64,000 nt of DNA from Larus michahellis (lineage: Eukaryota > Chordata > Aves > Charadriiformes > Laridae). The stretch spans positions 43,493,418 through 43,557,417 of the forward strand of contig NC_133901.1 of NCBI RefSeq assembly GCF_964199755.1, in the 5' to 3' direction. The stretch's first letter is position 1. Every line of letters starts with the position of its first letter. Position numbers and translations under genes: made by a program. The notes beneath the pieces were generated by a model. That model was not told the origin of the DNA and did no database searches. It saw only the letters and a program-made list of their open reading frames with translations. Shown one piece after another: positions 29,204 to 63,697 of this stretch.

Positions 29204-32200
29204 GTATGCCGATACTCTCCCCAGGGGGGTTGCAGCTCTTTCTCTGGATTTTGGGGATTTTATTTCTTCTCCTCTGTAAGGATGCTCAGAGGAGAAATAT
29301 TGCATCCAGACTTCTTGTCCATTATTTTTCCAGTTGCTTTGTGCTCTAGCTTTATTTGCAGAGGATTAGCTTCTGAAAACGCGGTAAGCTGATTTCAGAG
29401 AAAGCGTTTGGGCATCTCCTCTGTGAGAACAGAAGGGACATAATTACCAGTGGTGCAATGGCAAAAAGGGAATAAAATTTAAACATTTTCTTTTTTTTTT
29501 ACCTTTATGCTGAAAATGCTAGTTTTAAAAAGCTTTATTCTCCTCTACTGGTTTATTTCTGAAGTATAACTAGATGTGGTTTATGTTGCGGTACCAAAAA
29601 CTGCAATTCTATTTACTTAAAAAATCCTTCAGTTGGAGAGTTTAGGCAAAGCGATAGACTCCAGGTGGAAATGAACCCCAAAAATAGATAATAATAATAA
29701 TAATAAAAGTAAGATAATTATCAGACCAGAAACTTTCAGTTAAAAATGAAGACAAGATCAGAAGGGCATCCATTTTTAAATGCAATGCCATTGTACAGAC
29801 GTTTCTCTGGAGGACCATAATAAAAAAGTCTTTCTGAAGGGTAATCACAAAGTAATGGTCTGACTTAATGAAATACAAGCTACATTTTTATAAGGTCTGG
29901 TTCACATTAGAGGAGATTTTGTGACAGAGATACAGTATTTGCAAAATCCTTTAGAAGAATTTTTTTCTAGACAAGACCACAGTACTGAAATGAACGGCTG
30001 TCCCCTGTATTTCGGATCCCCATGAAATAGATCTACTTTCTTATCTCTTTTATGGTACTATAGATTTAATACCAGAAACTTTCCCGGTAAGAAGCGTGGT
30101 AGAGACACTAGTCTGCAATTGTTAAGAGGGAGTGCAATAGCGGGAGAGCCAATTATTGCTCCATAAATGTCACAGTTCCCAGGGGAATTTCCTCTCAGTG
30201 ACTGGAAAAAGCTGTAGTGTGTTTTGGTAAGATAAATAATAAAGCAATTATCCATTAGTCCCTTAAGGAGCATAATGTCACCTTTTTTTTCTGCATTATG
30301 ATTCATATTTGTCAGTAGTAGGAGGAGATTATCCCATAGATTAAATGTTTAGTGCTCACTGACATAGTTCAGGGACACTATAAGAAGCACGCTGTTTTAC
30401 TGCCATAGTGTCTCTGTTATTAAACATTTTGTGTCATGCCTACACACACACACACAAATGTTTTCTTGAAAGAGGATTTCTGGATTTTTCTTATTTGATA
30501 GATTTTTCTCTTCCTCAAAGTCTCAACTTTCAGATGAGGGTGTGCAGGAGTTAATACCACAATAAGAGTGCTGGATCAGAGTAATGTACTATGCTTTGAT
30601 TATAAATTAACAATTTAACTGTAGGCTCAAATAATGTGTAACTCCGGGAAACTTGCATGAAGAGTTCAGTGATGTTATTTGTTTTTGTTGATGGTTGAGG
30701 AACAATTGCTTTTGGTCAAAACCAATCTACTTTTGGCAGCTGTGTAATATTCTGTTTATCAGCCAGGCAGTGTGACAAGAAAATGTCACTTGCCTAATCA
30801 CATTACATTTCTTGCGGTATCTTGTTTAGCATGTGGAGTGGGACATGCCTATCTAACCTGTTACCTTTTACAAGGTGGCTTTGCATTTTGTTAAGAACTT
30901 GCCTTTCTCTCCTTGCTGATAGGCAAATTAAAGTCCAGTCTCAGAGACCTATTTTGACTCCCTTCATTCCTCATGGCTATCTACTATCCCATATCTTGGC
31001 AAAGTCAAAGTCATAATTTTTTGTGTGAAGGCTGTGAAAATGCAGCATAGGGTTTTCATGATTTGACCTCTAGAGATTAGAAATTGGAAGGAACGATTAA
31101 GACACATAAATCTGCCTTGCTTTTAGTATAGCATTTTCCAAAGATTTAATTTTCTGCACTTTCACTCTCATAACTCTATGTCCCTGTGGTGCAGTGACTG
31201 CTACCATCTGTACACACCTTCCCAACTATTTCATTGTAAAGCAGAGCTTGCTGTAGTGTATTTCCAGTGAGTTCTTAGCTGACTTTTTTATCCTCATTTC
31301 ATGAATGAAAGATCCTGTGCTGTATTGAGTCTATATTACTTCCTGCCATCCACACGTCAGTAAGGCTTCTTTTCGTATGCCTTTTATTGTTCAATTTATG
31401 GATCCTTTAGTTTTAACATGCACTAGAATCCTCTGTTGTGCATGAATATTGTCACTGCTGTCTATCATAAGCACTCTAAAAAAAACGGAAAGAAAAAAAA
31501 AGCAGGAACACTGTATGGGCCAGACTCAGACTCACACCACTCCAGGAGAGGCACAAGATGCAATCTCTGCAGTCAAAAGATACATATGAGTTACCGCAAA
31601 TTGATGTACTTACTTATGGTGATGATGTAGAGATCAGCAGCAAGTAAGAAACAACAAGAAAGCTTGTGAAAAAAGAAAATCAGATAAAAATCTTGCATTA
31701 AAAGAAAGTTTCAAAACCTTTTCAAAATACAAGAAAGTCACATCTGTGTTTGTGTTTCCCCCCAGGACAGTGCTGTGTAATGACCCGGAGATGACCCTCA
31801 CTCCTGTGAACATTCCTGTAGATACGTCCAAGCTTCGCATAGAAAAGACAGCCATCCGCAGGGTGCCAGGAGAGGCTTTCCATGGCCTCCACAACCTGGA
31901 GTACCTCTGGATGCCCTATAATTCCCTGGCCACCCTCAGTGGGATCACCTTCAAGGGCCTCCGTCGCTTGCAGGAGCTGAGGCTGGATGGGAACGACTTA
32001 ATATCATTCCCCTGGGAAACCTTGGCTGACATGCCACAGCTAAGGCTTCTGGATTTACACAACAACGAACTTACCTCAATCCCTCCAGATGCTGCTCGTT
32101 ATGTCAGGAATATCACATACCTGGACCTGTCTAGCAATAAGCTGATGACTCTTCCTCAGGCTCTTATTGCCACCTGGGCCAACCTCCAGTCTGTCCCTTA

Positions 32201-35200
32201 CTTCCCCAACGATAACTCCAAGATCATCCTAGGTAAGAGAAGCTCCTGTCATTTTTCAGAGGGGACACAAATGTCAAGAGCTCCGCATCTTATTGCAGCA
32301 TTTTCACCCACTGTGGTTATCACAGCAAGTACACTGCTGTGTACAATTTAATACCCCATATAAAATGTGGAAATTTGTTTACATATTAACAAACTCACCT
32401 CAGGCTCCCCACACCCAGCTTATTACACCATAAACTTCATCACGTGCTCGAATCTTTTAACACAAAACCAATCACTCTTTCTCAAGTCCTTTTTATTTAT
32501 TGACACTGCTATTTTTGACAGAAATATAAATATGATTAGAGCTCCACAGCATTCATGTTCTGTTTTCTAATAACAGTTACTATGGAATTGATCCATTTTA
32601 AGCAGCATTAAATGAAAAAGATGGATATTTATTAGGTCCAAATTAAAGAGGAATAAAGTCATCACTGAGCATAAAATCTGGGTCAGGACTGCGAGTTTTT
32701 GTTTTTCCAGAGCCTTGTTTATCTGTTCACCCAGAGTTAAATCCTAGTCTCCCCAAAGTCACCAAGATAGTGCTGCCTTCAAGGGCAGCTATAAGGTTAT
32801 AAGAATCCACATTTTGGTGACAATTCTGGGCTCCTCAGAAGTACGGCTTTTGGGCATTTGTCCATTTTGTTGTCAGAGGGCATATTACAGATGACTGTCT
32901 TGAATCCTCTCAGTTGCAGTATCCCCAGATGAGGTTTCGAGCACATTTACTAGTTCAGGGGATTACTACTCAGCCTTTTAGCCATCGTGCACTGGTTCAA
33001 ATCCACAGCAGGTTGATGATGGTTCAGAGTTGTTGCCATCTGCTGTCTTCACTTGCGATGAGCTGACCCAGCTCCACTGACTGTTTGATCTGTGGGGTTT
33101 TGTGTATCTGCATGTACTGCCTTGACAGCCACGGATGTGAGTTCAGGCACTTGCTGATAATCTCATCAGAGACATTGCAAGTTTTCCCTTGCTCTGGAAA
33201 GTGCCCGCTGCTCTTTGTTCTGCGGATAAATTTAGGGTGGTAAAGTTTTTAAAACTGGATTGCAGTGGAAAAAGACATAAGACTTTAAAAAGATTCAAAT
33301 TACCACCTGCAGAGCTTTTAGTGTCCTTAGCAGATGTTGTTTAAGGTTTCACTAGCATCAGGAGAGGAGCAGGTGTTTTGTCATCTTGTTTTGCCAGATG
33401 TGGTATCAAGTTCTTTAAGCCAAAGCTGGCTGTTTGGGATTGCCCATTTCATTTGCGGCATGAGAAGACACTGCCTAGATCATACTCTTTTCTTCGTTTA
33501 ATTTCTAGGGTCGTTAGATGTAAAAATGTTATTCCATTCAATATAGATTAGGAGAGTATTTTGTCGAGAAGAACAGATCATGCCTTGATGCTTGTAGCCA
33601 ACCTGACTGTTTACGTAGCCAGCTGTGCACAGGTTGCTTGTGCCAGGATCCTAAAAAATTCATGTAGGCAAATGAGTATAATGCTAAGATTAATACAGTA
33701 ATGCATAGGCACTCCAGCTCCTAGGTCCTATCCCGCTGACACCCATAGGGACCAGGTATATGAAACACACGTCCCTCGCAGGAGCAGAATGGGAGAACAC
33801 AGCTGCACATTTCCATTTCACTTTGCCCATGGCTGTTTCTCATGGAGGCATAAAAAAAATCCATGAATAATAAAGAATCAGCCCAGTCCCTTCCTTTGTC
33901 TACAGTGCATCATCACGACTCCTCTTCAGAGCCCTTGCTTGTAGACTACTTCAAGAAGAAGTACTTCCAACAGTAGCTTGCTGGCTGATAATCTGCCAAG
34001 GCTGCAAGCTTTTGCACATGAGGATTGTCCATGTGATCCCACAGGACTGTGCCATGCAGGGCAGAAAAAAGGGCTCACTGGGGCTTTAGGGGTGCTGCAG
34101 CATCACCTAGGGCTGGGGCACCTGCCAGGGAATCTGGAATAAATTCTTATCTAGTGCATGAAATCAGAAGTAATCTGCTAGCAAAAATGCCATAAAACAA
34201 CAAAGCTAAACTCTGAACTTTCATTCTTTATAGTCCCCTTAACTTCCATGCATTAATTTGTAAGAAATGCCCTCCCACCAAGGTTCACCACTTTCAGGCC
34301 CCTTCCAAGCCTGGGTAGGATGGTATGCAATGGTCTCAGCAAAGAGATTTTTCAGCAGCCTTTAAAACAGTTTATTTGAGACCTGAGGGGCTTTTGATTG
34401 AACCCGTGTTTCTGTTGACTTCTGTTGCTCCTGGTCTAGGCTTCAGTGCATGCCTGGAGTTAGGTGGTATAAATATCCCCAGTGCTAATTATGCTGGGTG
34501 AAGTTGTTAGAGACCATGAACTGTCCATAGGACAGGTGATTGTGAATATTTGTAAGTAGGATGACACAGATTTAATCAGAATGCAGTAACTTCTGTTCCT
34601 GCATTGCCCGAGCTCGATTCCGCTTTTTCAGTCCCATCTTCACAGGTCTGTTTTTAATAGAGTAATGTCTCATTTTTTCCGAATTTGAATTCAATAAGCA
34701 CACACTGAGATGACAGAAAAAAGATAGAGAGAAACATTCTGGGACTCTGAAACAGGAGTGTATTCTTCAATATACCCCTTTCTATGTGTATTTTCTTAAT
34801 ATAATTATTGTCTATTTATGTTCTTTTATATACCATGACATGTATATTCTTCAATTTACTCCTTAACACCGTTCTTTCATCTTATCAAGCATAAATTAGC
34901 ATTTCAGGATAAACAACTGATTACTAAAATAATGAAAAAAAACTTAGAATAACAGGGATGGAAGAGAACTCTTACAGTCAAGTAGGATCATCTTCACCTA
35001 TTGCAGGCCTGACAGTTGGCCTGATAATCTGCCTAATATTTTAATAACCTCCAGTGAGAAGAATTTCTTAGCCTGTCTAGGAAAGAGACTGCATAGCCTC
35101 TTCATACCAAAAAAATCCACACCCCAAAACAAAACAACCCTTCCCCATAGCTACTTGTTTTTTCCATCCTGGAACCAAATGTGCTTATAATAACTTCTTG

Positions 35201-38200
35201 TTCTGCTTCTTTACGTGCATAAATAGCAATGTTTTCATAATATGAATAATCCTGCTTTGAATTTAAAGAATATGATTTCAGCTCCAGATTTTGAGATACC
35301 TTAGCAAGCCATGTTTGTTCCCTTCTACTAACTGGCAACTACGGGATCCATCAAGCTCAGCCAACAGCAGCAAGGGTCTGTTGGGAAAACACCACCCCCT
35401 GCGTACCTTGCCCATGCACAGGCAATCCTTGCTGAGCAGATTAGGAGCCTATCACAGTTTGTTCTGCTGAAAAATAGAAACAAAAGTGGCAGAAACAAAA
35501 GGTGCTGTTGGAGTGACTTAGTGCTCTGATTTATTTTGACAGGCTTGCAAGACAATCCCTGGGTATGTGACTGCAGTCTCTATGAAATGGTCCATTTCCT
35601 AAATTTCCAGTCTCCTAACATAGCATTCATTGAGCCCAGGCTGAAATGCTTCACCCCCCGGAGCCTTGCAGGAGTCTTCTTCAGCCAAGTTGAGCTAAGG
35701 AAATGTCAAAGCCCTGTTGTACATACATCCGTAGCCAAAGTAAAGACCATCCTGGGCAGCACTGTGCTACTGCGATGTGGGACAACGGGGGTGCCCATTC
35801 CTGAGCTCAGCTGGAGAAGGGCTGATGGTGCTCAACTGAACGGCACAGGTGGGTTTGGTTTAAGCTTTTCTTGTACACAGGGACTGAATGAGGGAGACCT
35901 GCACCTTTATTTTCTGTGGACTGTACAGCAAATGGAAGCTTCTATGACAATAGATCCTTATCACTGATAAAGGACCCAAAAAAAGAAAGTCGTGCAAAAT
36001 GAGATTCACTGTAATTCACAATAGTATACTGTGTAATTCACTATAGCATTGTGATTTTCTATAAACTATAAAATTGCTTACATGTTGATGTAAATATCGT
36101 CAGATAAATGTATACTATCATGTGTAAAAAGCTGTTTTTTCTTTGTTTCATAACAATTGTGGTGGTAGTGAGACGAGCCAAGGGGTTTTCTGCAAATCTG
36201 TTGGAGCTGAAGAAATTAAATATGTCCAGCTGTAGCAAGAGATTTCTTTAGGTTAGTTATTTAGTTATTCAGTCACTGAAAAGGCTTCCCACTGAATTAT
36301 TTTATGGGTCTTTGAGAGTAATGATAAGGTACTATTAATCAGTTAGTAAACATTTCTGGCAGAGAGATGTCTGACGTGAATTCAACTGGGATTTGAATCT
36401 GCTGTGGCAAGGAAAGAAAAGATTGCAAACATGCAACATTACTGATATATTAAAAGAGAAAAGAGCCACTAAACTGCTGAAGGATAAAATACTTCAGTGA
36501 CAATGCTTCCAAGAAATGGCTCATTTCTGATGGATTGACAAAGTCTCTTGGGAAAATGCTCTGTGAGAGAAACGCTTACCAGGTCCCTCTTCTGTGCTCA
36601 CCCCTCTTGTGGGGGAAGCCTTCAACCAACCATTGTTTTTGTAACGGATCATGTTTTCATTTCCATTCACAAGAATGATTGGACGCCAAATTGCAATGTT
36701 GGTCCTTTAATGTTTGGGGGATTTAGGGAAGAAACCTTTGCTGCACTCAAGGCAGTCATGCTTAGTTTTTTGCCCTCGAGGTTTTAGATCAGGACCTGAA
36801 CTTTCATCCCTCCAACCTCCCCTGAACGCTACTGTCTCCCAGGCCTGGCCCTGACTTTCACAGAGGGTCTAAATTCAGCAGATAAATTGCTAAGTGTGGA
36901 GTCTGATCTTCCAAGGGTTACTGCGCTCCTCAGTGCACAGAAACAGGAGAGCATTTTTCTGTCACAGCAGTAGAACCACTTGTAATAAATATCCTTTTCT
37001 GGGATCTGTACAAGTCATTGCTCTGTTGTGCGTGATGTGCAGGATGTAGCAGAGCTGCTCCTCATAATTATAATGTCTACCCGTTGTGCTGCAAATGTCC
37101 CTCCTACACTTGAAAGAGAACCAAAACAAAAAATAGAAGAGAGAATGCTTTCTTGAAAGCATATGTTGCATTTACTTTGAGCTACAACTGAGAATGATTA
37201 AATTTTTGCCCCATTAAATCAGACTTTCGCACCTTTCAATAAAAAGCTGGCTGAAAATATACATTATTTCTCAGCAATGGCACCTTCTGTGCCAATACGA
37301 CTGTTTGAAATGTTGGCGTTCTGAATTGAAAGGAGTGAGAAACAGCCCACAGTCTGTATGTATGGGGAAGTGCCATAGGAAGACTGGTAGCTTTATGTTT
37401 TCTAATATACCCATTCAGTAAATAATTAAACTGAAAAAGTAACTTCTGCTGCCATTGTATTTCATTGCCTTTGGAACACGCCCTGGTTGCCAAGGCTGGA
37501 TCCTGACCCCACGAGGGCTTGGGAGAAGTTTGCATCCTGTCTTACCTTTGCCTTTCAGACCTTTAAAATGGGAGAGGGCAGAGATAGTACGTCCTCATCC
37601 TAAGGAGGCTGGTTAAACAATGAAGAAGGTGCTTTACCCTTCGGCATGATCTCAGCTCTTTTTTTCTGCACAAATAGAAAATAGCCCCAAAAAAGAGCTA
37701 CTTTTAGCCTCCTGGTAAACCAAGTGAGAAAATCAACACTCAGCTGTGTCCATACCATTCAGTGGTAAGTGATCAGACTTCCCTGTGTTTGGCTCAATAT
37801 GAAAACCTGCACTAATTTAGCAGTAAAAGGGAGGTTATTTTTCAGCTATTTTTCTTCATATCCTCTATACTAGTCCATAAGTGGTTTTTAGAAGAAAATC
37901 TCCAGTTTGTATTTTCTGTTGCTCAGAGGACTGTGTCTAATGTTCAACTAGGTCATGTTACTGCCTCCTCCTTCCACTCTTTTAAGTATTGTACCTACAT
38001 GAGAGCTTTTAAGCCTTTTTTTTTTAATGGAAGAAACTTTCCTATTTTGTTTTCAAACTGTTCATCACTTGGGAGGAAATAGCATCAAATGCTTCACATA
38101 TATTTGGTCTGAAGCAGTGTAAATCCCGACATAACTTAATTTTAGAGTTAATGTCCTTTTCTTGGATTTACTTTGATTTTGTGGCAAAAAGAAATGATTC

Positions 38201-39291
38201 TACTGTATCAAGCAGACATTTGGTTGATTGAATCTTAATATTTTACAAAACATGTTCTTAATTCTATTGATTATTGCCTATTTATTTTACATTTTTCCTT
38301 CTTTGCAGTTCACCAAGAGATTTCCAGTGATGGGATGAGCTGGTCTATTCTGGGTCTGCCTGTAGTCTCTTATCTTGACTCTGGAGAGTACATCTGCAAA
38401 GCAAAGAATTTTCTGGGGGCAACAGAGGCGTTCATATCTCTCATCATCACGGACTCAGAAAGCACGGATGACCCCAACTCTAATGCCAAAGGTGCATGGA
38501 GCGGGAAGGCAAGCGGGATGGAGGCAGCTGCCTACAATGACAAGCTAGTGGCAAGGTACATTATCACCACCTCCACTGTGCCTACCCTGGGGGCTGGAGT
38601 GGGCACCGGAGAGGGCCTTCTCCCAGATGTGGCACAAGATAGCAACCCCAGAAACCTGCTGGTGAGCCCGCCTACTGGCCAGCAGGAGCCAGAGCGAATT
38701 GTGAGGTCCGTCAGGGTGATAGGAGACACAGATCAGAGTATCACCCTGGCCTGGAAGGCGCCTCTGGCAAAGAACACAACAGTGTTCAGTGTCCTCTATG
38801 CCATCTTTGGAGAGAGAGACATGCGTCGGATCAATGTGGAGCCAGGGAAGACAAAGGTCACCATTTATGGTCTGCTGCCAAAGACCAAATACATCGTGTG
38901 TGTCTGTGTGAAAGGGCTGATCCCCAGGAAGGAGCAATGCATCATATTTTCCACTGACGAAGTTGTCAGTGCAGGAGGGACCCAGAAGCTCATCAATGTG
39001 GTTGTCATCAGCGTGGCCTGTGTCATTGCTGTTCCTCTGACGCTGGTGGTCTGCTGCGGAGCACTGAAAAGGCGCTGCAAAAAATGCTTTGTGCGGAAAC
39101 CCAAGGAAATTCAGGAGTCCTATGTCACCTTTGAAAGCCTGTCTCCTGGGGCCAAGGCAAAAGGCGTGGAAGGAGAATACTTGACTAGACATACTCCTGA
39201 TGAGTCGAACAGGCTGCTGTCTGCCCGATCCAGCGTGGACTCAGAAGCAATACCAAAGATAGAGGGGCAACCTAATGAATACTTTTGCTGA
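29082..39291 (+). CDS. LRIT1: LRIT1, leucine-rich repeat, Ig-like and transmembrane domains 1 (complete)
   Basis: LRIT1 is a single-pass membrane protein of photoreceptors, found at their synapses, where it tunes signalling to bipolar cells. Four coding exons (29082-29203, 31766-32232, 35543-35848, 38309-39291) join in frame with phases 2, 1, 1 to give 625 residues; human LRIT1 has 623. In order there are a signal peptide (about 1-22), LRRNT with CPSQCSC, LRRs (about 60-185), LRRCT from DNPWVCDC (201-251), an Ig domain with C275, W287 and C328, an FN3 domain (about 431-514), a helix LINVVVISVACVIAVPLTLV (526-548) and a tail with RLLSARSSVDSE ending NEYFC, as in human. The start has good Kozak context (GCC before ATG). 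Order relative to RGR and LRIT2 supports LRIT1 rather than LRIT2 or LRIT3. Confidence 0.97.
29688..29706 (+). repeat. (AAT)n microsatellite
   Basis: About six uninterrupted ATA/AAT units. Confidence 0.9.
30442..30457 (+). repeat. (AC)8 microsatellite
   Basis: An uninterrupted AC dinucleotide run of about eight units in LRIT1 intron 1. Confidence 0.9.
31766..32232 (+). CDS. LRIT1: LRIT1 coding exon 2 (leucine-rich repeats)
   Basis: The acceptor is TTTCCCCCCAG and the donor is CTAG|GTAAGA. The exon codes residues 42-196 with tandem LRRs such as LEYLWMPYNSL, LQELRLDGNDL, LRLLDLHNNEL and [11 protein letters not shown]. It ends in phase 1 inside glycine 197. Confidence 0.97.
32233..35542 (+). 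other. LRIT1: LRIT1 intron 2
   Basis: This 3310-base phase-1 intron splits the LRRs from the LRRCT. LRIT2 has no intron at this place. Nothing else is recognised apart from a very weak CR1-like stretch near 34945-35095. Confidence 0.85.
35543..35848 (+). CDS. LRIT1: LRIT1 coding exon 3 (LRRCT, first half of Ig)
   Basis: The acceptor is TTATTTTGACAG and the donor is ACAG|GTGGGT. The exon encodes LQDNPWVCDC, the LRR C-terminal cap with cysteines 205, 207, 232 and 251, then the start of the Ig domain, VLLRCGTTGVPIPELSWRR. It ends in phase 1 after the sequon NGT. Confidence 0.96.
35849..38308 (+). other. LRIT1: LRIT1 intron 3
   Basis: This 2460-base phase-1 intron interrupts the Ig domain, as the last intron of LRIT2 does. 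No other content is recognised. Confidence 0.85.
38309..39291 (+). CDS. LRIT1: LRIT1 coding exon 4 (Ig end, FN3, transmembrane, tail)
   Basis: The acceptor is CTTCTTTGCAG; the split codon G|TT gives valine 299 and then HQEISSDG. The exon contains the second Ig cysteine (SGEYICKAKN), a low-complexity linker, FN3, the membrane helix and the cytoplasmic tail. It ends at a TGA at 39289-39291. Confidence 0.97.
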
Positions 39292-47208: not shown

Positions 47209-50200
47209 GTAAGAATGCTAGTTACACTAGTTGTAGCACCAGCGAAGCAGTTCGGAGATTCCCAATATATATTTGCTGATGTTGCGAGCACCAAAACCAA
47301 ACAGATGGCTGCATGGTATGCCTCTTCTAAGTCTTGAATAGTAATAGCTTGAGCACAGAATGAGATTTCTCTTATTTCTCTGAGATATGTAGTTGCATAT
47401 GTAGCAAGTTTTATGACTTAATTGTAGCCTTTTGGGAAAACGGGTGTAAATCCAAACTGAAGGATAGATCTATGGCTTATGCATGCACTATATATAATGC
47501 CTTATAATTATTCAAGTGCTTGTAGACACGAATAGGGACCGGGTTCGTTAATTACGAATGTGGTGTGTGACCTGGAGAATTTTCTGGTTTCCTCCTTAGG
47601 AGTTTGCTCTGCATGTCTGCACTGCTGAGGCAGATCCCTGCAAACATCCCTCAGGACATGCGGAAAATTAGAATAGAAAATTCTCACCTAACAGAATTGC
47701 CTCGCGGGTCTTTTGAGAACGTTAGTGCCTTGGAGTATCTCTGGCTCAATTTTAACAACATCACGGTGATGCACATCAAGAGCCTGGAATATCTGCCGGC
47801 ACTGAAGGAGCTGCGCTTGCAAGGGAACAAATTAAGTTCGGTGCCATGGACAGCATTTCAAGACACTCCAGCTCTGAAAATCCTGGATCTGAAGCACAAC
47901 CGGTTGGATGTCCTTCCAGAACATGCACTCCGCTATCTGCCCAACCTGACCTATTTAGATCTATCCTCAAATCAGCTTACTGTCATATCCAGGGATGTCT
48001 TCTATAGCTGGCCCGTCTATCAGAGAAGCCAGAGGGCGGAGGGACAGATAGAAGCTATTTCCAACGCCGTCTTGGCCCTTCATGACAACCCCTGGATTTG
48101 CGACTGTCGCCTGCGGGGATTTGTCCAGTTTATCAAGTCGGTTGGCCCACCTATTATTCTGATGAATTCCTATTTAACTTGCTCAAGCCCGAAATTCAGG
48201 GCAGGGAAGTTTTTTCATGAAGTGGAGCTCAACAGCTGCATGAAGCCCCTGACTTCGGCCCTTGACACCAACCTGACAGTCCCAGTAGGGCTAAATGTCA
48301 CCCTGACCTGCTTTGTGCAAGCCAGTCCTTCCCCGGCTGTCTGGTGGACCTATGCACTCAAACTTCTAAGGCCGTTTAATGGTAAGCAGAGATTTTTCTT
48401 CTTTTTTTTTTTTTTTTATTAAAAAAAATTACATTCTGTTATTCTGCTAATGTAGGTCTTCAGGCCAAAACAGTCACTACAACAGCTCTCAGCCCCTTTA
48501 GATCATCACAGTTATTGTGGTGGCAATAATCCAAATAATCTTAATCATCCTATGTGTCTAAGCACGTCTGAATGGCATGAGAAGAGCTGCTTCATGCAGG
48601 ATATCAGTCAAAGATGAAAGGAGCACGGCCTCATTTTTACACAATTATTTTATGTGTGGCTTTTTAGTAGTAGCTCTTTCATCATGACACATGATATAAG
48701 AACCATTAATAATACATCAGCCATACATATATAATAAACACGTACTTATCTAGACATGCATATATATTTACAATATATATTATATGCTATATGTATGTAT
48801 GTGTATATATATGTGCACACTATATTTGTATGTACATGTGTTTGTAGGAGCGTGCACACGCACACACACACTTGTATGTTTCTACACTAGTCCCATATAT
48901 TTTTCTTAAGAAATACCCCCACACACCACAGAACCCTGCAGCCCTCTTGTCTCTCGGTGTCCATTCATGTTCTGCAACCATGCCCTCCATAAGCCTTGCT
49001 TATTTTTATTCTTTATTGAGAGTCCCATAATATGAGGGCTTTTCCTCTTCCTCCCCATCCAGCTCAGCTCTTACACGCCCTCCATTACATTTATTTTTAC
49101 TAAGAGCCTTCAATAAAACAAGTTGCTATTTTCATCAGGTAAGCTAATAACGCACACGGGCACCACACAGGTTATGTGTGTTCCTAATAAGCCAGCTAGC
49201 CAAATAAGATAGCATTAGCCCTTAATCCTGGACTGATATTTGCTTTAATTGCAGCATTGTAGCAGCACTTGTGCATCTTCCCACAAACACATGCTGAATT
49301 AATTACGTACAAGCTTTTCCTGACCACAGCTATGCACCCCTATTTGGGCAGGCAACAGGGTGCTTCGTACTGTTCTTAAAGCTGCAGCTTGTGTCCAGCC
49401 CAATGCTCCCTGCCTCCACACGCCTCTTTTTGGCCCCAGCCTCTTGAGACTGAAGTTTTCCATACTCAGTCCTAATGGGGGATGAAGCGTGGGTCCAAAT
49501 TGCAGCTATGCCTCCTGCATCTCAGTGGCTTGCCCTGACCTGAGCATGCTGGTGGCAGATAGCACATGGGTCGCTTGGCCTCTGCCTGCAGCAGCCTCCC
49601 TATGACTGGATGTACTCCCTGTCCTGTGCTTGGGTGTCCCGGTGCTTCTATTGCCTTTTGTCCCAGAGAACCCTTTGCTGATGAGCTCTATGGGATTCGG
49701 CACGCTCCTGTGCCCCTCTTCCTCTTTCCCTGGGCAAGGCAGGACCTGCCTGGCCCCCATTCCACACCGAAGTGGTCTTGGGGCTACACCAAAGACTCCT
49801 TGCCTGCTTGCCCCCCCCCAACCTGCTCACACAACTCCCCTCTGCCCACAGTGTCCACGGAGCCCATCAGCGAGGAGACCGTCCGCTCAGAGCTGCTGAT
49901 CCCAGCAGCGCGGCCAGTGGACGCTGGCAACTACACCTGCACGGCCGCCAACTTCTTGGGCAACACCTCGGTGGCCATCACCCTCTGGGTGGGGGCCCCC
50001 TGGGCATCCACCCCTGACCCAGGCTGGGCCCCCATTGGGCCTGCTGAGCCGGGTGCCCACGTAGAAGTGCGCATTGCCAAGCAGACGGTCTACGGCATCA
50101 CCCTAGAGTGGTTTGCGGCGGCGGCAGCGGAGCCAGGTGAGATCTGGTACACACTCCTGGTGGGACGCTATGATGCTGCCCAGAAGGATGCCATCTACAT

Positions 50201-50657
50201 CGGCCCTGGTGTCAACACCTACTCGGTGACTGACCTCTTGCCTGCCACCAAGTACGAGGTCTGCGTGGCCGTGCGCAACCAGGCACCCCGCAAGGGCCAG
50301 TGCGTCGTCTTTGTCACGGGCAGTGACGTCAGCCAGCTGGAGCAGCGTGAGAAGCTCATCCACATCATCGTCATCGTCTGCGCCATGGTGCTGGCCGTGC
50401 CTGCCGGCATGTACGCCTGCACAGCTGAAGCTCGCCCTGGTTGCCTGGCCCGCTGCCCTGGCGCCTGTCCCCGCCGCCGCCGTGGGGGCCAGGCACAGGC
50501 CGCCGGCAGTAAGGAGAGCACACTGGACAGCCTGCCTGCCGGCAGCGAGGACGGGCTCTGCCGACCCGAGGGCGGCCGCGGTGGTCGGCGGCCCCCGGCC
50601 CGTGAGGACCCAGGCAAAACCCGGCCACCCCACAGGAACAGCGCTGACCTCTACTAG
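47099..50657 (+). CDS. LRIT2: LRIT2, leucine-rich repeat, Ig-like and transmembrane domains 2 (complete)
   Basis: LRIT2 is the paralogue of LRIT1, a retina-expressed single-pass membrane protein whose exact role is less known. Three coding exons (47099-47208, 47600-48381, 49852-50657) join with phases 2 and 1 to give 565 residues; human LRIT2 has 550. Visible parts are a leader ([20 protein letters not shown]), LRRNT cysteines 24, 28, 30 and 41, LRRs (about 60-190) with [11 protein letters not shown] as in human LRIT2, LRRCT from [14 protein letters not shown] (198-249), Ig with C274 and C327 (GNYTC), FN3 (about 367-453), a helix [20 protein letters not shown] (466-485) and an arginine-, glycine- and proline-rich tail. 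The start gives A at -3 and G at +4. The protein resembles human LRIT2 more than LRIT1 throughout the LRRs. Confidence 0.96.
47209..47599 (+). other. LRIT2: LRIT2 intron 1
   Basis: This 391-base phase-2 intron is at the same protein position and phase as LRIT1 intron 1. Nothing else is in it. Confidence 0.9.
47600..48381 (+). CDS. LRIT2: LRIT2 coding exon 2 (LRRs, LRRCT, Ig start)
   Basis: The acceptor is TTTCCTCCTTAG and the donor is AATG|GTAAGC. The 782-base exon carries all LRRs ([33 protein letters not shown]), the LRRCT and the first Ig strand region [18 protein letters not shown]. It ends in phase 1. Confidence 0.97.
48382..49851 (+). other. LRIT2: LRIT2 intron 2
   Basis: This 1470-base phase-1 intron has a poly-T run near 48402-48417, a TA/CA microsatellite at 48721-48876 and a C-rich tract at 49811-49819 close to its acceptor. 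Confidence 0.88.
48721..48876 (+). repeat. Compound TA / TATG / CA microsatellite
   Basis: Alternating purine-pyrimidine sequence with TATATA, ATGTATGT and CACACACA blocks in LRIT2 intron 2. It is imperfect, so old or interrupted. Confidence 0.85.
49852..50657 (+). CDS. LRIT2: LRIT2 coding exon 3 (Ig end, FN3, transmembrane, tail)
   Basis: The acceptor is CTCTGCCCACAG; the split codon G|TG gives valine 298. The exon encodes the second Ig cysteine, FN3, the membrane helix and the tail, ending at TAG 50655-50657. It is strikingly GC-rich compared with exons 1 and 2. It has a five-alanine run at the start of the FN3 region and an arginine run just after the helix. Long ORFs on the other frames here are GC artefacts. 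Confidence 0.95.
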
Positions 50658-55188: not shown

Positions 55189-55740
55189 CTAGATGTGGGG
55201 CTCACCGATAGCTGCGTTCCTCTTCTCAAACTTCAGTTTAAGCTCTGACACGAGGGCATTGTGGGCGCTGCCATGACCTCTCTTCTTCAGCTGCTTGTTT
55301 ATAAACTTGGGAGTGAGGGAGCCGGACACGGTTGGCACCCGCCACCCCGGGGCGTCCCCCCTGGGAGCCAGGGCGGGGGGCGGTGGGGGCACAGGGGCCG
55401 TCGGTGGCATGGGGGCAACATGGATGTTGTTGTTGCTGTTCTCGTTGTGTAGGCTCTTGGAGTCGTCCTCAACGACAAACTTCTCCGCAGCATTGCTGGG
55501 CCTCTTGAACTTCAGCCACTCCATCCTGACTGCCCGGGGCTGCGGGGTCTGTCTCTTTTTTATGATCCTTCTCACCGGCGTGATTTTGTTGGACCGCTTA
55601 TTGCGCCAGAACATGGCAGTAGAGATCATGATAGTTATCAGCACCATTATGCCCATGACACCAGCTAGCACTCCTAAGGCTTTCATGGGGTTATCTTTAG
55701 TTTGCATCAAAAAGGCGGCCATAGGCCCTTTGTGAAGAGT
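55189..55740 (-). CDS. CDHR1: CDHR1 terminal coding exon (transmembrane helix and long cytoplasmic tail)
   Basis: The acceptor is ACTCTTTTACAG, phase 0, followed by ACT CTT CAC. The exon has 183 codons and then TAG at 55189-55191. Residues 1-19 ([19 protein letters not shown]) are juxtamembrane; about 20-45 form the helix [20 protein letters not shown]; a basic stop-transfer [18 protein letters not shown] follows. Then come a conserved IEWLK-like RMEWLKFK, a proline-rich stretch ([10 protein letters not shown]), [12 protein letters not shown] and a C-terminal [12 protein letters not shown] as in mammalian CDHR1. Confidence 0.96.
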   Translation of the reverse strand, partial: TLHKGPMAAFLMQTKDNPMKALGVLAGVMGIMVLITIMISTAMFWRNKRSNKITPVRRIIKKRQTPQPRAVRMEWLKFKRPSNAAEKFVVEDDSKSLHNENSNNNIHVAPMPPTAPVPPPPPALAPRGDAPGWRVPTVSGSLTPKFINKQLKKRGHGSAHNALVSELKLKFEKRNAAIGEPHI

Positions 55741-58700
55741 CTGTAAAAGAGTACAAAGAAAACACATGACTTACTCTATGGGACAGACAGTGACCCAGGA
55801 ATTTCATTTGTCCAAAATATGTAACAAGCAGGGCTGACTAATGGAAGTTGTTTCTAAAAAAAATGAGAGTCAAAGAGCCAGTCCAGGTCTGGAGAATTTG
55901 GGTGGAGCGGGAGACTGGGCAAGCATGACAACATCGTGAGATGGACGACTGCCGAACACAAAAGCTTACAGGAGTATTACCGCCAAATTAGGACGGATTC
56001 CTGTGTGTCACGATAGCCTTTGTTTAATTTGCAAGAACTGAGCAAGAAAATAATTGTCTCCAGGCTCTGCAGCTGTATTGTTGTACTACATTTCAGAGTT
56101 ATTCAGAAATGTACTACATTTCAGAGTTCCTAGGAATAATAGTGTTGAACCCAAACAGAAGTTTATGAGTAGAACATCATCTTTCAAAACCAGTTGCAGG
56201 TGATATGGTGAGGCAGTTTACAGGACTATTACTGAGCATGGCATTCAAAGGATTATGAGAAAACTTCACTTCATAAAATTACACTGTACGAATGAGCAGT
56301 TAGCAGGTACGTTCTGTTTTCAAGTACTCTTTTACAGACATGACAAAACTCTTTGAGGTAGGGGACATGAGTAGAGGTAAAGAGCTTTGTTTTAGAAACG
56401 AAAGAAATCAGCAATAATGTAAGCTACATATGGCATATTAAGGACAAATGAATGGCCAGTTCACTTTGCAGCTTAGCACACTGTGCGTCTCGGAGGTCCC
56501 CGTATTATTTTGCGGATTTTGCCCTGCGGGTGGAGCTTGGATCTTTTCACACTTTTCCAGTACATGATGGTGGAGATCACCATTGTTACAGAAATGGTAG
56601 AAAGGACGCCACTCATGCAAATTCCAAATATTGTCCATGGACGCTTCTTGAGGCCTAAAATATAGGATTTTACCCTGGACTTGATCTGGAAATATCAAAA
56701 ATAAGAGAAATGGTCAACCCTCACATAGTTATATTTGAAAGAGGCCAGTATTTATTATAAATACAACTAGGGAACTAGGGTGAAATGTGTACAGGATGGA
56801 GAGCATGTAAAATAAAGGGAGCTAAGTGTTGAACTAGGCACAGGAGAAGAGACAGTTGCAATGACCTGGAACTGAATCCAGAAACACTAAAAGAAGTTGG
56901 GAGACATGTATAAACACCTGGTTGGTCAGGGAATAAAGGGTATCAGCGCAGCACAGCTTGTTCATGGCACGGTAGTCCACCCTTGGACTACATTTCCAGG
57001 AGAAGTTCATCATGAATACAAGCTCCTGCAAGGGTATCTGGACAGCAAGTAGTGTTGTGCAAGGCCAGGAGATCCTTCAGAAATGGCATGGTCACGAGCA
57101 GGTTTGTTTACCAAGAGCTGGTCATAAAGCTACGCATGGCTGTGGAGAGACAGGGCTACCCACCGTGCCCCGCTCCTCTGGCCTCAGCTCCAGGAGGGAA
57201 TCACCACCCAAACTTTGCGTGTCTAGTAACAGGTTATCTGCATTTTAGTCAGAGGTCTGACTGCATTTTATCTGCATTTCATACCAGCTTTTAGTCAATG
57301 GTGAGAAAAGGACACCTCCAAAGTAGTAGTCACCGCATGCTAAAATAGGTATCAAAGAGAGTGCGTATAAGGAGAGCCTTGTGACTAGCTTGGACTTGAA
57401 CCTTTGAATTTTAGACATTTAAAGTGAGATCAGATGGATTTCCTTCCAAACTAGGATGCTCATCTCTTTACCCTCTCCAGTCTGTGGCGGGACATGACTA
57501 AGAGTATTCCCAAAGGATGCTTCAGAGTGCCTCGTCATGTATTACACAAAAACACTATTTTTAAATCACATCCCTAAAGTTAGGGAACATAAATTTATTA
57601 ATACACACCCCACTGTCTTCACTTCTGCATTTTCACAACCTACCTCAAACACGTTATCCAAGACCTCTCTTCCCTGTCCTGAATGTTTCCTATTGCCAAA
57701 GAGAAATGGGCGAAGAAATGGTATTGAAACTCATGGACTACATTACCTTACAGGTAATGACCAATTTTCATAATTTTGCTGTACAAAGACTTTTCCCATT
57801 ATTTAACTAGGAATGGACTTAAGTTAGAAACCAAAAGCAGAGCAGCCCACGACTCTGGTGGAGCTTGGATTCACATCAGCTTTGCTGTTCTACATTACAT
57901 GGATTTTGCGTACTTAAATCCCATCAGATAACAGAAATTCTACCCCGCCTTACTTCACTTCATGTGAAAGTCTGATGAATTGTCAGATAAATCCTGCTAA
58001 GTAGTACATGTCCTGAAATGAGTCCACTTATTATGAGTGTTGTCAAGATCTATTTTGTAGTGAGGTACTGATGGCTCAACACAAGAAGAAAGATGACATA
58101 TACGTAAGAAGATGCTGTATCTTGGCAATAATTATTTGACTAACTATTTGAAAACCTTGAATAAATGGGATTAGACAGACGTACATGTCTGTGTTGCCAG
58201 AATACAAGTTTCAGGGGTAAGAACTGATGGAAATCATATGGGGAGTTTCAGAACTCAGCTTTGTTCAACTCCCCCTTGTCTCACCAAGTTTGGCACCTGT
58301 TCAGAGCTTCCAGTTATGAGGAGGTAATTAATACCAAGACTAAACCTATTAATAGCTAGCTGGCTCAGCCTATATTGTAGTTACCGGGGCTGTACTATAC
58401 AAAGCTTTGCCTAGAATCAGCCTTGGCTAACAACTCTTCTGCAATATCCGCATAAAAACATAAGGCATTTTGCAAGCATACAGTAGGAGAATTTCTGTTT
58501 GTCATGGCCATGACTCTCATAGGATGAATACAAGAATAACTCACAAAACAAGCCTGGAACAGCACCATCCTAGCCAGCCTGCAGAGCAGCTTATGTAAGT
58601 GCATTTGTCACCAAAAAAGCTTTGCAATCTTGCCTGTGTCACCACTGTGGCCCAGTCGGTGAACGCACAGACCAGGTCTGAGAGAGGTCCGAGCACCCTC

Positions 58701-61700
58701 TGACAGTGAAAGCCTGGGAGCACTTGGACACCTTCGTGTAAGCGCTTTTGAGCACTACCCTGTGCATTGAAAACACCTCAAGTCATTGTATCGATTACCA
58801 ACAGTGCCTCAGAACTGGGTCAACAAATAGTGCCCCCCTGTAATTTATTTAGCGGTTGTTTTTTTCCTAAGAGACACTCTGCGTTTCGAAGAGTACTGAT
58901 TTTTCTTGTCTACATAAAACAAAAGCAGGTATGCAATGAAATGAAAGCTGCTATGGGAAGCACTGTCATATTTCTGTGGGCCAAAACCTGGAAGAAACAC
59001 TCTCTTTCTTAATAGCCATCAAAAGAGTTAAAATACCACTGCTCAAAAGAGATGATGCTCTGCTGTTTTTTTTGCTGTGACTTCACAGTTCTAATGAGCA
59101 CTGGCCCAGAGAAGGGTTGAGGACAATTAGAGGGTTACAGAACTGTGGCAGAAGTTTGGAAGTAGCTAAGCTGTTTGTATTACCGTCGAGAAAGAAGTCC
59201 AATCCTACGACAAGAATACAATTAAAAAGATAAAAGCAACTATTTGGATTAAAAGATGCCATCACCTATTTTTTGTTTAACAGGCAGGTATGGTCCCCTG
59301 CAGGGAAGCTCCTCAGCCCAAGTCCCGCAGGGTGCTGAAGTGTCCAGCAGTCACTGGGACTCACCAGCTTTAGAGAGACATTGACACATGCCACTGAAGG
59401 TGGTTTCACAAGACCCAGCGCTGTGCAGTTTAAGTGTAGATAGATGTTTTCAGGCTGCACACCTGAAGGGCAGGCTGCGGAAAACACCCCTCTGCAGCAT
59501 GCAGGGCTTGCTCTTGCCATCCTTCCTCCATAGTGGCTTCCTACCCAAAAATCTGAGTTTACCAAAGAGAATGTCCACTAGCCTTTGCTACTGAAATGGT
59601 GACTTATTTCCTTTGGTAGGTTGTAATGTGCAGACATCCACACCTCCTGGCAGCTTCTCAAGAGCCTTTCATAATGCATGGGTTGCAGTGAGCAGAACAA
59701 GCGGGCGAGGTATCCAGAAGTTGGACCCAACAGGAACATGTGGTTGAGCTCTTCAACCACGAGACCAGCTAAGGCTCACCAGCTATATTTAGAAGCCTAA
59801 GTAAGAAGGCAAAGCTGTTAAGAGCCCAAGCTATTGCAGATTACAGGCAACTCGGGCTGTGTCGACTTGAGCAAGCGGATCTGTACAACGAACCAGCTGG
59901 TTCTGCGCAGCCCACTTCCACATATTCAGCATTGCTGGGGTTTTGCTTCAGATTGCCCTAGCCTGATTGCAGAGACGGACTGCCTGCTGGTGCCAAAGCA
60001 CACTAGGTGTGCCCCCCAAGCACGTTTTTGTCTGAAAGAAGTCCACCTGGTGTTTTTGGAGCTATCTGAGACATAAGCCATACCACAGTATGCAGGGATG
60101 ATAAGGAGATTTGCTTCAGAAGTAACTCCTGATCTGAGGTAGAACACAAGCTGCCCCCTCCAGTGCTTATCCCAAAGAGCAGTGCCGTCATCCTATATGA
60201 AGGCTGCATTTACAGCACTTTGCAATACAGACCTGAGCATGGGGCCAGACTTCTCAAATCAAACCGGCCTTCTCTGAACAATTTTTTTCAAGATCCATGC
60301 AACTGTTGGAGGAAGAGGCTAACTGCTTTGCAAATGTGGCAAAGGATGTTTAGCGACACATGTTTAGAACCACAGTTCCCATGGTTGCAGAGTTATATGA
60401 GAGGGGAGGAGATACCCACGTTAGTTCACAGAAGGTATTTGTTGAACCTTTCAATCAGGGGAATCTAAAACTGAGACTCATCAGCTATATTTAGAAGTCT
60501 AAATGAGTGGCCAAAGCTATTAAGAACCACAGATTATGCCATCTAAATATGGACTTAAGCCTCAGTCCATGAAGAGAACGTCAGTGGAGTCATGAAGAGG
60601 CAGAGGAATCCCCCAGTCGGACCAACCCTCAGGATCAGGAGTGGGAATGAGCTTTCCGTGAAAATCTTGGGCAGCAGGAATAGATTTTTGAGTGAAACAT
60701 AAGGGTGAAAAAAGAGCGGCTTTTTCAGCATATGTTTCTTATTCTGTTGAGAAGGGATAAGAGATTAACAGATGCCACTCAATACCAATTTTCATAAAAC
60801 CAGACTCAGTGAAATTAAAAGGCCTCTGGAATTTTTATCACTGTATTATTCCAAGAGCAAAAGGTCCTTTTGATGTGCAATACTGCTGAACTTAGCCACA
60901 AGGCATCTATCTCAAAGGGCACAGCCTTGCGCTAATTGCAATGGTAAATGTTAATCAGAAAATATGCCTGTTTAATTACTTGGTGTGATTAACACTGCAG
61001 GAAACCTCTAGAGGATGCATTCAAAAATATCCTCCTTATCCGAAATCAGTAATACATAAATGCCCAGAAAACAGCTAACTAAAAGAGACTTTGTACAGCT
61101 GGAGCAGAGAGGGATGAAACGTACGTTTGCAACAGCCTGTGAGAGGCCGAGCGTACGCAGCGTACGCAATGTCCCGGTACCAAGGCACTGCATCCTTCAC
61201 AGTGTCAGCAGTGACCATGCTGTCTCTGGGACGTAGGGAGCGACCAAGGGCTTTGTATGCCGACACGGCACCTCACTCACACGCAAGCTGAAATTTGAGA
61301 GCGGTTTTTGCAAGGAGATGTGATGCTCTTGAAAAAAAAATCCAACCCAAATAATTGCAAGCAAAGGAAGAAGTAACGGAGAAATGTACAGAAGCGTACG
61401 GAGGATGTGACGCCAGATTAGTGGTGCAGATCCTGCTGAAGAGACCTACTCATGCGAAGAAAGAAGATGCTGTTGCCACCTTGGGGTCTGTGTTGGGACT
61501 TGGCATGCAGGAGAGCATGGGAAGAAGGGAATAGCTGTGTGAGGGGAATCCATGTCACAGCCCTCTCTGTTTCCCTTTATACTTTATCAGGAGGGATGCT
61601 CCCTCACTCTGTGCCAAATCCGTACCCCTGGGAGGGGGTGGAAAGGAAGCAGAGAGGGGACTTAGTAGGAGACACCTTCTTTCATCAGGTGCTGATGTTG

Positions 61701-63697
61701 CTTCATGCACTAGAAGAAAATCCAGGAAAATTTTTATCCCAAAGCATCAGATGCTCATTTTCCTTCCAGACATCCTTTATCAGCTGGTTCAGGGATCTTT
61801 CCCCTAGCAGAGGAGGTGTGGGGCACCCTCCCGCCCCTTGACGCACCCTCAGCCCTGTGCCTTAGACGCCACAGGCTAACAGAGAGGTCACCGGCTCATC
61901 TGGGAGGGGAGGGAAGCTGGAGGCTGGATGCTGGGGCTCAACAGCGGGGACAGGGCCTGAGGCCACCTGGTGCCATGCACTCCTGAAACATGTGCCCTGT
62001 GAGAAGCCTGGAAGCAAGGCAGGGAGGGCGGGCGCTCCCACTGTTGGCTGCGGGTAGCTATTCTTATGTGTTGTATAAAACCCACCAAAAATTATGGTTT
62101 CCGTGGGAAATCAAAGTGATAAGCAGTTTATTTCCTTCGTATCAGTAAGAATGGCTAAATCTCCAGACTCGCCACGGAGACGCAGCCCACACAGTCCCCC
62201 AGCTCCACCTGGCAGAGCCTTGAAGCTGCCTGCCCTGCCTGTGGCGGCGTTCGTGGAGCCTGCAGCAGGGCTGGCCGCCCCAGCAGGCAGCCCCACGCCA
62301 GGCACCCCCTCTGCTAGGGCAGACCCGGGTCCTGCAGCAGCCCTGGTGGGGCAGGGCAGACAACGGAGACCAGAAGCTACTCCTGTGCTGCTGGTGGCTG
62401 TTTGCCTGGCACAAGTGTTCTCTGCAGACAATTTTACCTTCCAGTGGAGCATGAACTGTATACAAGAAGTATCATATAAATGCACCTGGTAAGGAGTATC
62501 GGTGGAATAAGAGGAGACGGGAAAAACAGAGAAGGACTGTAATAGATAAGGAGCAGTGGGTGCATTTTGACCAAAGAGAAGGCCAGCTGCTGTCTGTAGG
62601 AAGAGATTTGCATCTTTGCCCAGTATGTGTGTGGTCCAGAGACCATCAGGGTAATGATGCGTTTCTCATCTACTTTAAAGCCCATTTCCTCCCTGCTGGT
62701 ACCTACTTAAAAGGCATGGCAAGGCAACTACAATAAATAAGAATCACACAAGCATCCACTGCTCATCATAAATCGCTGCTTGTTCTATGGTTGATGTAAA
62801 AGTTGGACTAACAGGAAACTCTGAACCTACATGTGCTATCTTTTAGGGTTGTCTTGTTCCGTCTGCTAATAATACTGCAAGTATTAAACTCACATCCAAA
62901 ATTCTACTTTAAAGCATTTCTATAAAGTTTTCTCACTTTTCCTATGTCACTTATGTTGACTTGCAAAACTGGTCTGATATACTTCACTCTGGCCCCACTA
63001 CTTTCCACTCACATTTTGTAGGGGAAAAAGATTGTTTTCTTCTTTTGAATGAAAAGAAAAAATCAGAAATTTAGAAGTCAGGATTTACCTTTACTCTCAG
63101 GAGTCTATAGTCCTTAATTTGCATATGTCTCTAACAATCAGATGCAAGAAACTCATCTCCCACCCACATTATCCTCCTACCTTTGTACCTTTGCTATTTC
63201 TCTGATCGAAATGTCTTTTACATTTGTGGCTGTAGAATCCAGCTTCACCACAAGGCTCTACAAACACTCTACAAACCAGAGCCAGCAAGAAAGGAGGAGC
63301 AATGGCTGGCAACTTTCTGGCTGTTGATTTCAACTCCTGAAGCATTGTTAAAGTAGTCCCAGAAAAGGAGCAGGCAGAGACTACCCTTCATTGCCTCTCA
63401 AGGATCATCTCACATAAGGATTTTTCTGAAATGTTTTCTTACCTCCTCTGTGATATCAATCTTCAGAACTGCCGTGGTGCTAAAGGACGGGGAGCCTCGG
63501 TCTTTGGCCTGCACCACCAATGACCATATGCAGTCTTTGTTCTTTGTGATGTTGTGGATGATGTCCAGGGAACGGATATAGGATTTCAGCTTGATTTCCC
63601 CAGTGCTTTGGTCTATATCAAAGACATTGGCTGGATCTGCTTGCATGATGGAATAATCCACAATGTTGTTGGGTTCTTCTGCATCTTGATCTATAGC
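55189..63697 (-). CDS. CDHR1: CDHR1, cadherin-related family member 1 / photoreceptor cadherin (3' part)
   Basis: CDHR1 (PCDH21, prCAD) is a cadherin of photoreceptors at the base of growing outer-segment discs; loss causes cone-rod dystrophy. Two exons of the 3' end are clear: 63443-63697, the end of a cadherin repeat ([11 protein letters not shown] and [20 protein letters not shown]), and the terminal exon 55189-55740 with the membrane helix and tail. They join in phase 0 as [20 protein letters not shown], matching the human [21 protein letters not shown] order. The upstream exons (most of about 860 residues) lie beyond the right edge. A second possible terminal exon at 56473-56685 lies in the intron. 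The gene is convergent with LRIT2, as in mammals. Confidence 0.95.
56023..56028 (-). terminator. CDHR1: Possible polyadenylation signal ATTAAA for the alternative CDHR1 exon
   Basis: Plus-strand TTTAAT lies about 445 bases past the TAA of the candidate alternative terminal exon and before the regular last exon. It would allow the alternative exon to end its own transcript. Chance occurrence is quite possible. Confidence 0.25.
56082..56128 (+). repeat. Two-copy direct repeat, period 28
   Basis: TGTACTACATTTCAGAGTT occurs at 56082-56100 and again at 56110-56128, a small tandem duplication. No function is evident. Confidence 0.9.
56473..56685 (-). CDS. CDHR1: Candidate alternative CDHR1 terminal exon (second transmembrane helix, short tail)
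   Basis: On the minus strand a pyrimidine-rich acceptor (TTTTTGATATTTCCAG) precedes 70 codons and a TAA at 56473-56475, in the phase-0 frame needed to follow exon 63443-63697. The product begins [17 protein letters not shown], has a helix of about residues 18-42 ([20 protein letters not shown]) and then a basic tail [19 protein letters not shown] ending RRTVC. It resembles the regular terminal exon around the membrane: VISTIMYW against MISTAMFW, and a following basic run with RKIIR against RRIIK. I infer a duplicated, mutually exclusive last exon giving an isoform with a tail of about 27 residues instead of nearly 140. Alternatives are a decayed exon copy that is no longer used, though it has no stop or frameshift. 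Confidence 0.75.
   Translation of the reverse strand: MKSRVKSYILGLKKRPWTIFGICMSGVLSTISVTMVISTIMYWKSVKRSKLHPQGKIRKIIRGPPRRTVC
59735..59845 (+). repeat. Copy 1 of a diverged duplicated segment
   Basis: It contains AGCTATATTTAGAAGCCTAA and AAAGCTGTTAAGAGCC and shares order and spacing with the segment at 60428-60537. Similarity extends left to GTTGAGCTCTTCAA against GTTGAACCTTTCAA. It may be an old tandem duplication or two copies of an unnamed interspersed repeat. Confidence 0.65.
60428..60537 (+). repeat. Copy 2 of a diverged duplicated segment
   Basis: It contains AGCTATATTTAGAAGTCTAA and AAAGCTATTAAGAACC, the counterpart of 59735-59845 about 700 bases away in the same orientation. Confidence 0.65.
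63443..63697 (-). CDS. CDHR1: CDHR1 penultimate coding exon (last cadherin repeat)
   Basis: The acceptor on the minus strand is ACTTCCCCTACCAG and the donor GAG|GTAAG. The 255 bases give exactly 85 codons, phase 0 at both ends. Cadherin features are [11 protein letters not shown] (calcium-binding DxD-type motif), [12 protein letters not shown] and [19 protein letters not shown]. The product is extracellular, directly before the juxtamembrane segment. Confidence 0.96.

Follow-up and report, generated by a model that had tools for sequence, protein, structure and literature searches.

The window analysed here, a stretch of 64,000 nucleotides from Larus michahellis, carries the 3' part of a gene that fits CDHR1, because its joined upstream exons match the Pfam Cadherin family (E = 1.6e-17 and 6e-17) and genes with leucine-rich repeats and fn3 parts lie alongside. 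The latter are two adjoining genes on the plus strand (31626-39291 and 47571-50657) in which leucine-rich repeats are combined with fn3 or Ig-like parts; in single exons, Pfam detects LRR_8 at 47571-48422 (E = 2.1e-29) and fn3 at 38239-39291 (E = 2.1e-07). We take these genes to be LRIT1/LRIT2-like, and we presume that the human gene order is the same. Elsewhere in the window, a 230-codon open frame at 5890-6582 on the minus strand has no match in Pfam and resembles the end of the reverse transcriptase of a CR1-type non-LTR retrotransposon.

All features of the CDHR1 gene described below lie on the minus strand. An upstream exon of 255 bp (63443-63697), the equivalent of human exon 16, encodes the end of the last cadherin repeat and would be shared by all products considered here. 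It ends in phase 0 at the donor GAG/GTAAGA, which reaches 10.0 bits in our scoring scheme, in which the donor and acceptor matrices are approximate. Beyond the last intron (55741-63442, 7.7 kb) lies the regular terminal exon (55189-55740), in which 183 codons and a stop codon specify a stalk, a transmembrane helix and a long tail; the helix, taken as the most hydrophobic 21 residues (55609-55671), has a Kyte-Doolittle mean of 2.34. One form of the Siah motif is PxAxVxP, and a pattern test finds a stretch of this Siah-like kind, PTAPVPP, in the regular tail (55384-55404). The form of the motif printed in the available part of PMC7719784 is found by the same kind of test neither in this tail nor in the alternative tail described below. 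Overall, the exon layout agrees with that of human CDHR1, with 85 codons ending in phase 0 followed by 183 codons, compared with 86 amino acids, a boundary at c.2040 and 859 minus 680 residues in the human gene, as given in the available portions of PMC5539332 and PMC6201214.

Within the last intron we find a putative alternative terminal coding exon (56473-56685) of 70 codons followed by a TAA stop. Its AG acceptor (56686-56687) reads TTTTGATATTTCCAG immediately before the first exon bases ATC and scores 9.65 bits, which ranks it sixth among the 523 AGs between 63442 and 55700. With 10.0 bits, the regular acceptor at 55740 ranks second in the same region; it is one of the five AGs that outscore the alternative acceptor, and the other four belong to no known exon. 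Each terminal exon starts in phase 0 and thus matches the phase-0 donor upstream, so that translation, acceptor score and phase together bear out the open frame with stop and phase-correct acceptor described in the initial annotation. Residues 18-43 of the exon form a predicted transmembrane helix (56557-56634), which is followed by a basic stop-transfer run; the best 21-residue window (residues 20-40) has a Kyte-Doolittle mean of 1.78, less hydrophobic than the 2.34 of the regular helix, and the 30 residues past it contain ten lysines or arginines and no aspartate or glutamate. These values support the transmembrane anchor that had been proposed, and the exon's own stop after 70 codons supports the further proposal that its product would lack the long proline-rich tail and the VSELK end of the regular form. 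The PxAxVxP stretch is likewise not found in the alternative tail by the pattern test. Among the 41 intron open reading frames of at least 60 amino acids, five reach a 21-residue Kyte-Doolittle mean of 1.6, the alternative exon included, and one is more hydrophobic than it. Open frames with a hydrophobic helix are thus not rare in themselves, and it is the similarity to the regular exon that carries the case.

This similarity extends over 67 aligned residues, of which 19 are identical and 40 positive, with a BLOSUM62 local score of 84 and an alignment that begins near the first residue of both exons. The score was reached in none of 5,000 full shuffles (maximum 58) and in none of 20,000 shuffles carried out within the stalk, helix and tail separately (maximum 69), and the runner-up among 165 intron open reading frames (at least 30 amino acids, both strands) scores 37. 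The duplicated transmembrane exon of the initial annotation is thereby supported by 25,000 shuffles without a single equal score. When the segments are taken one by one with their ends anchored, the segment score is equalled in 22 of 20,000 shuffles for the stalk and in 7 of 20,000 for the helix, compared with 3,884 of 20,000 for the cytoplasmic part; with local alignment the corresponding counts are 267, 23 and, for the tail, 7,377 of 20,000. Homology as read from these alignments is therefore well supported for the membrane anchor, that is for the stalk and the transmembrane helix, while the basic tails are alike in composition and not demonstrably in sequence. The likeness to the regular last exon claimed earlier thus holds for the stalk and helix and does not extend to the "following basic block".

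Searched against the window's own 1.4-Gb genome, the regular exon gives four matches at E <= 1, itself among them. Next in rank are a stretch interrupted by stops (E = 0.033), the alternative exon (E = 0.43) and a second such stretch (E = 0.62); the two interrupted stretches lie on other contigs and match the tail of the regular exon. On the genome-wide scale, the match between the two terminal exons lacks significance (E = 0.43), and the case for their homology rests on the local tests. No third copy of the exon was found in this genome, either in the regular-exon search at E <= 1 or with the alternative exon as query, which matches itself alone at E <= 0.001. Pattern searches gave 14 and 5 matches in viral_contigs and 145 in genome_contigs, none of which tblastn confirmed at E <= 1e-3, as is expected for a vertebrate exon. 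Relatives of solved structure were limited to one weak match each to CD4 (E = 0.23) and CD28 (E = 0.18), which we do not regard as meaningful. A repeat origin of the exon was also considered and rejected: in a blastn search of 56760-55950 against the window (E <= 0.1), no match other than the self-match covers the coding part. The three side matches are short: one is a palindrome of 37 bases around 56100, another an inverted match of 26 bases to the regular splice site, and the third spans 21 bases around 42520.

The human gene offers a close parallel. Human CDHR1 isoform 1 has 859 amino acids and isoform 2 (NP_001165442.1) has 745, with the first 680 identical (PMC6201214, as far as available), and a donor variant of exon 16 is described at c.2040+5, where skipping of exon 16 removes 86 amino acids (PMC5539332, likewise in part). 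Because 2040 = 3 x 680, the last residue common to both human isoforms is encoded by the final codon of exon 16. The window's equivalent of this exon encodes 85 residues, compared with the 86 amino acids of the human exon, and ends in the same phase. Human isoform 2 therefore resembles the form predicted here in diverging at the same exon-16 junction, in phase 0, and in carrying a short ending in place of the long tail; from the lengths given in PMC6201214, its own residues number 65, compared with the 70 codons of the alternative exon. From the shared junction and these similar lengths it follows that orthology is likely, and the alternative exon most probably corresponds to the exon specific to human isoform 2. 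The intron itself differs in size. Positions reported for GRCh37 in the accessible text of PMC8182786 (c.1592 at 85971973 and c.2203 at 85974000) give by arithmetic a human intron 16 of at most about 1.4 kb, if c.2041-2203 is taken as one exon, compared with 7.7 kb here. The statement in the initial annotation that mammals have a CDHR1 isoform with a different C-terminus was thus right, the isoform being the 745-residue isoform 2 of PMC6201214, and the alternative ending is correspondingly less novel than first proposed; it is probably an old and real alternative ending of CDHR1.

Nucleotide differences between the two exons amount to 109 of 201 aligned sites (54%) and are distributed over the three codon positions as 36, 32 and 41 of 67 each. 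With pS at 0.65 and pN at 0.51, the pair is near saturation and gives no clear signal of selection; these values cannot prove that selection has acted. We simulated neutral decay of the regular exon, with 2,000 runs at each setting and an assumed 0.1 indels per substitution, 80% of them frame-shifting. With 0.3 substitutions per site, 0.15% of runs retained an open and unshifted frame; with 0.5, 0.75, 1.0 or 1.5, no run did. When indels were left out, 27% to 6% of runs were free of stops. To judge from the sequence, the exon pair is an old tandem duplication in which the frame of the alternative copy is still open. Because the frame, acceptor, helix and stop-transfer run have all stayed intact after so much change, we infer that long coding use best explains the exon.

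The same data bear on the reading of the exon as a decaying relic, a duplicate that was once used and is now silent or spliced as noise with intronic polyadenylation, so that no functional protein results. Such decay would agree with the low identity to the regular exon and with a cytoplasmic part that lacks significant similarity. However, the exon still has an intact frame, acceptor, helix and stop-transfer run although 54% of the nucleotides differ, an outcome almost never expected from neutral drift at the assumed indel rate, and a human isoform arises at the same junction (PMC6201214, PMC5539332, each as far as available); we therefore consider a relic unlikely.

The sequence downstream of the alternative exon suggests how its transcript would end. 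A candidate poly(A) signal, ATTAAA, lies 445 nt past the stop (56023-56028); it is a match to consensus alone, ATTAAA being a variant hexamer, and a T/G-rich stretch follows about 60 nt beyond it. The best donor downstream of the exon, AGAGTAAGT at 55775, lies 35 nt before the regular exon and scores 6.9 bits, and a second, CCTGTAAGC at 55970, scores 5.6 bits. Since these fall short of the 10.0 bits of the exon 16 donor and the ATTAAA follows, we read the alternative exon as terminal, with a separate 3' end. In the presumed 3'UTR we also note a 37-base imperfect palindrome (56082-56118, 81% self-match), situated about 50 nt before the ATTAAA. The two weak donors are what could make the exon a cassette or poison exon, spliced onward to 55740 so that its stop triggers nonsense-mediated decay and thereby regulates the level of CDHR1. 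We regard this as very improbable, as neither donor comes near the strength of that of exon 16, a poison exon has no need to retain stalk and helix homology, and human isoform 2 is catalogued as a protein of 745 amino acids (PMC6201214, in its available part). That an open frame with a hydrophobic stretch arose by chance behind an equally fortuitous acceptor is scarcely credible: hydrophobicity of about this degree in five of 41 intron frames (the alternative exon included) and five better-scoring AGs out of 523 (one being the regular acceptor) show that each element alone is not rare, but the similarity score was not equalled in any of 25,000 shuffles, the aligned part starts close to the beginning of the exon, and the frame has the right strand and phase.

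We therefore think it likely that the exon is an old tandem duplicate of the CDHR1 membrane anchor, kept as a mutually exclusive terminal exon whose use is predicted from the sequence. In the proposed scheme, exon 16 would be spliced from 63443 to 56685, and cleavage and polyadenylation near 56000 would then yield a short-tail CDHR1 with the same cadherin repeats, a different stalk of 17 residues, a different helix and a basic tail of 27 residues, whereas splicing past the alternative exon to 55740 would yield the regular long-tail protein. The most likely effect is that the short form would keep adhesion but lose its coupling to the factors that bind or degrade the long tail. In zebrafish, Siah1 degrades Cdhr1a via a motif that is said to be conserved among vertebrates (PMC7719784, as far as available), and CDHR1 is reportedly shed by proteolysis (PMC13090022, in the part available, citing Rattner 2004); on these grounds we predict that the short form differs from the long form in both stability and shedding.

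How the choice between the two endings might be made is hinted at by a stretch of 16 nt (56324-56339) in what we presume to be the 3'UTR of the alternative exon. Its sequence is complementary at every position to the regular 3' splice site (55739-55754), from the last bases of the pyrimidine tract across the AG to the second base of the exon. We noticed this complement after the fact, through the 26-base inverted match of the blastn search. Of the 863 acceptor-like sites that the two strands of the window contain, no other has a 16-nt complement within the 700 nt upstream, the next best reaching 12, and random 45-nt pieces attain 16 nt in 2 of 3,000 cases within 700 nt upstream and in 5 of 1,500 within 7 kb to either side. 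The duplex between the regular splice-site region and the complementary stretch is, at -35.3 kcal/mol, the most stable of 1,387 windows over about 14 kb, and the next separate site reaches -32.1 kcal/mol. When a stretch of 781 nt is folded as a whole, the 16-nt helix is present in neither the minimum-energy nor the centroid structure; forcing it costs 1.1 kcal/mol, and its pair probability is 0.19. The modelled pairing is thus plausible as a structure and not dominant. If real, it would make the regular splice site inaccessible, to the advantage of the alternative exon, and in this way the complement hints at an exon choice controlled by RNA structure. A more far-reaching proposal, which we put forward as speculative and, taken as a whole, rather doubtful, is that amniote CDHR1 possesses an ancient duplicate anchor whose use would be decided by RNA structure through masking by the 16 nt, giving either the long-tail form or a short form that has another stalk, lacks the Siah-like region and may be shed differently. 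Photoreceptors could thereby set the lifetime and release of the links between discs and calyceal processes, for example differently in cones and rods.

Mutations in CDHR1 cause cone-rod dystrophy, and two human frameshifts fall in the region encoded by the regular last exon, namely c.2522_2528del (p.Ile841fs), reported in three patients (PMC9140808) and also listed in PMC8182786, and c.2410_2485del (p.Thr804fs), classed as likely pathogenic (PMC9368980), each according to the available portions of these sources. Evidently, the isoform with the other ending does not replace the regular one in the retinas of those patients, provided that isoform 2 skips the regular last exon. The open-access literature that we surveyed yielded no study of the function of the short isoform. 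Should the short form prove to be conserved between birds and humans, it probably serves a distinct function, one that would be missed with cDNAs of the long form only and with variant interpretation based on it. The short form also offers a way to examine the hypothesis, put forward in PMC13090022 (in its accessible text), that cleavage of CDHR1 is specific to rods. Overall, we conclude that the alternative exon is probably real and functional.

The distinctive point of the CDHR1 case is the nature of what was duplicated, namely the membrane anchor of a photoreceptor cadherin. PCDH15, another member of the cadherin family, has alternative C-terminal exons in which the helix is common to the different forms and the tail alone changes, whereas in CDHR1 the helix itself is duplicated. 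On a broader scale, mutually exclusive homologous exons are described for 157 human genes in a test set, with the identified events dated to more than 460 million years ago (PMC4465641, as far as available). Like the exons of that study, the CDHR1 pair is arranged in tandem and is old, and low identity is compatible with such substitution, given that the MASP1 pair shares less than 33%; unlike them, the CDHR1 pair is terminal and carries a membrane anchor, and its alternative use in transcripts is a prediction. Similar to the predicted choice in CDHR1, the Drosophila genes pip and PGRP-LC have duplicated terminal exons or 3' regions that are chosen one at a time, and the 16-nt complement in CDHR1 is reminiscent of PGRP-LC, where a splice site is masked by RNA structures that compete with one another (PMC9013439, in the portion available). 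The two systems differ in that pip and PGRP-LC are insect genes, while the gene described here belongs to the cadherin family, bears its membrane anchor within the alternative exon and has an RNA structure that is a prediction.
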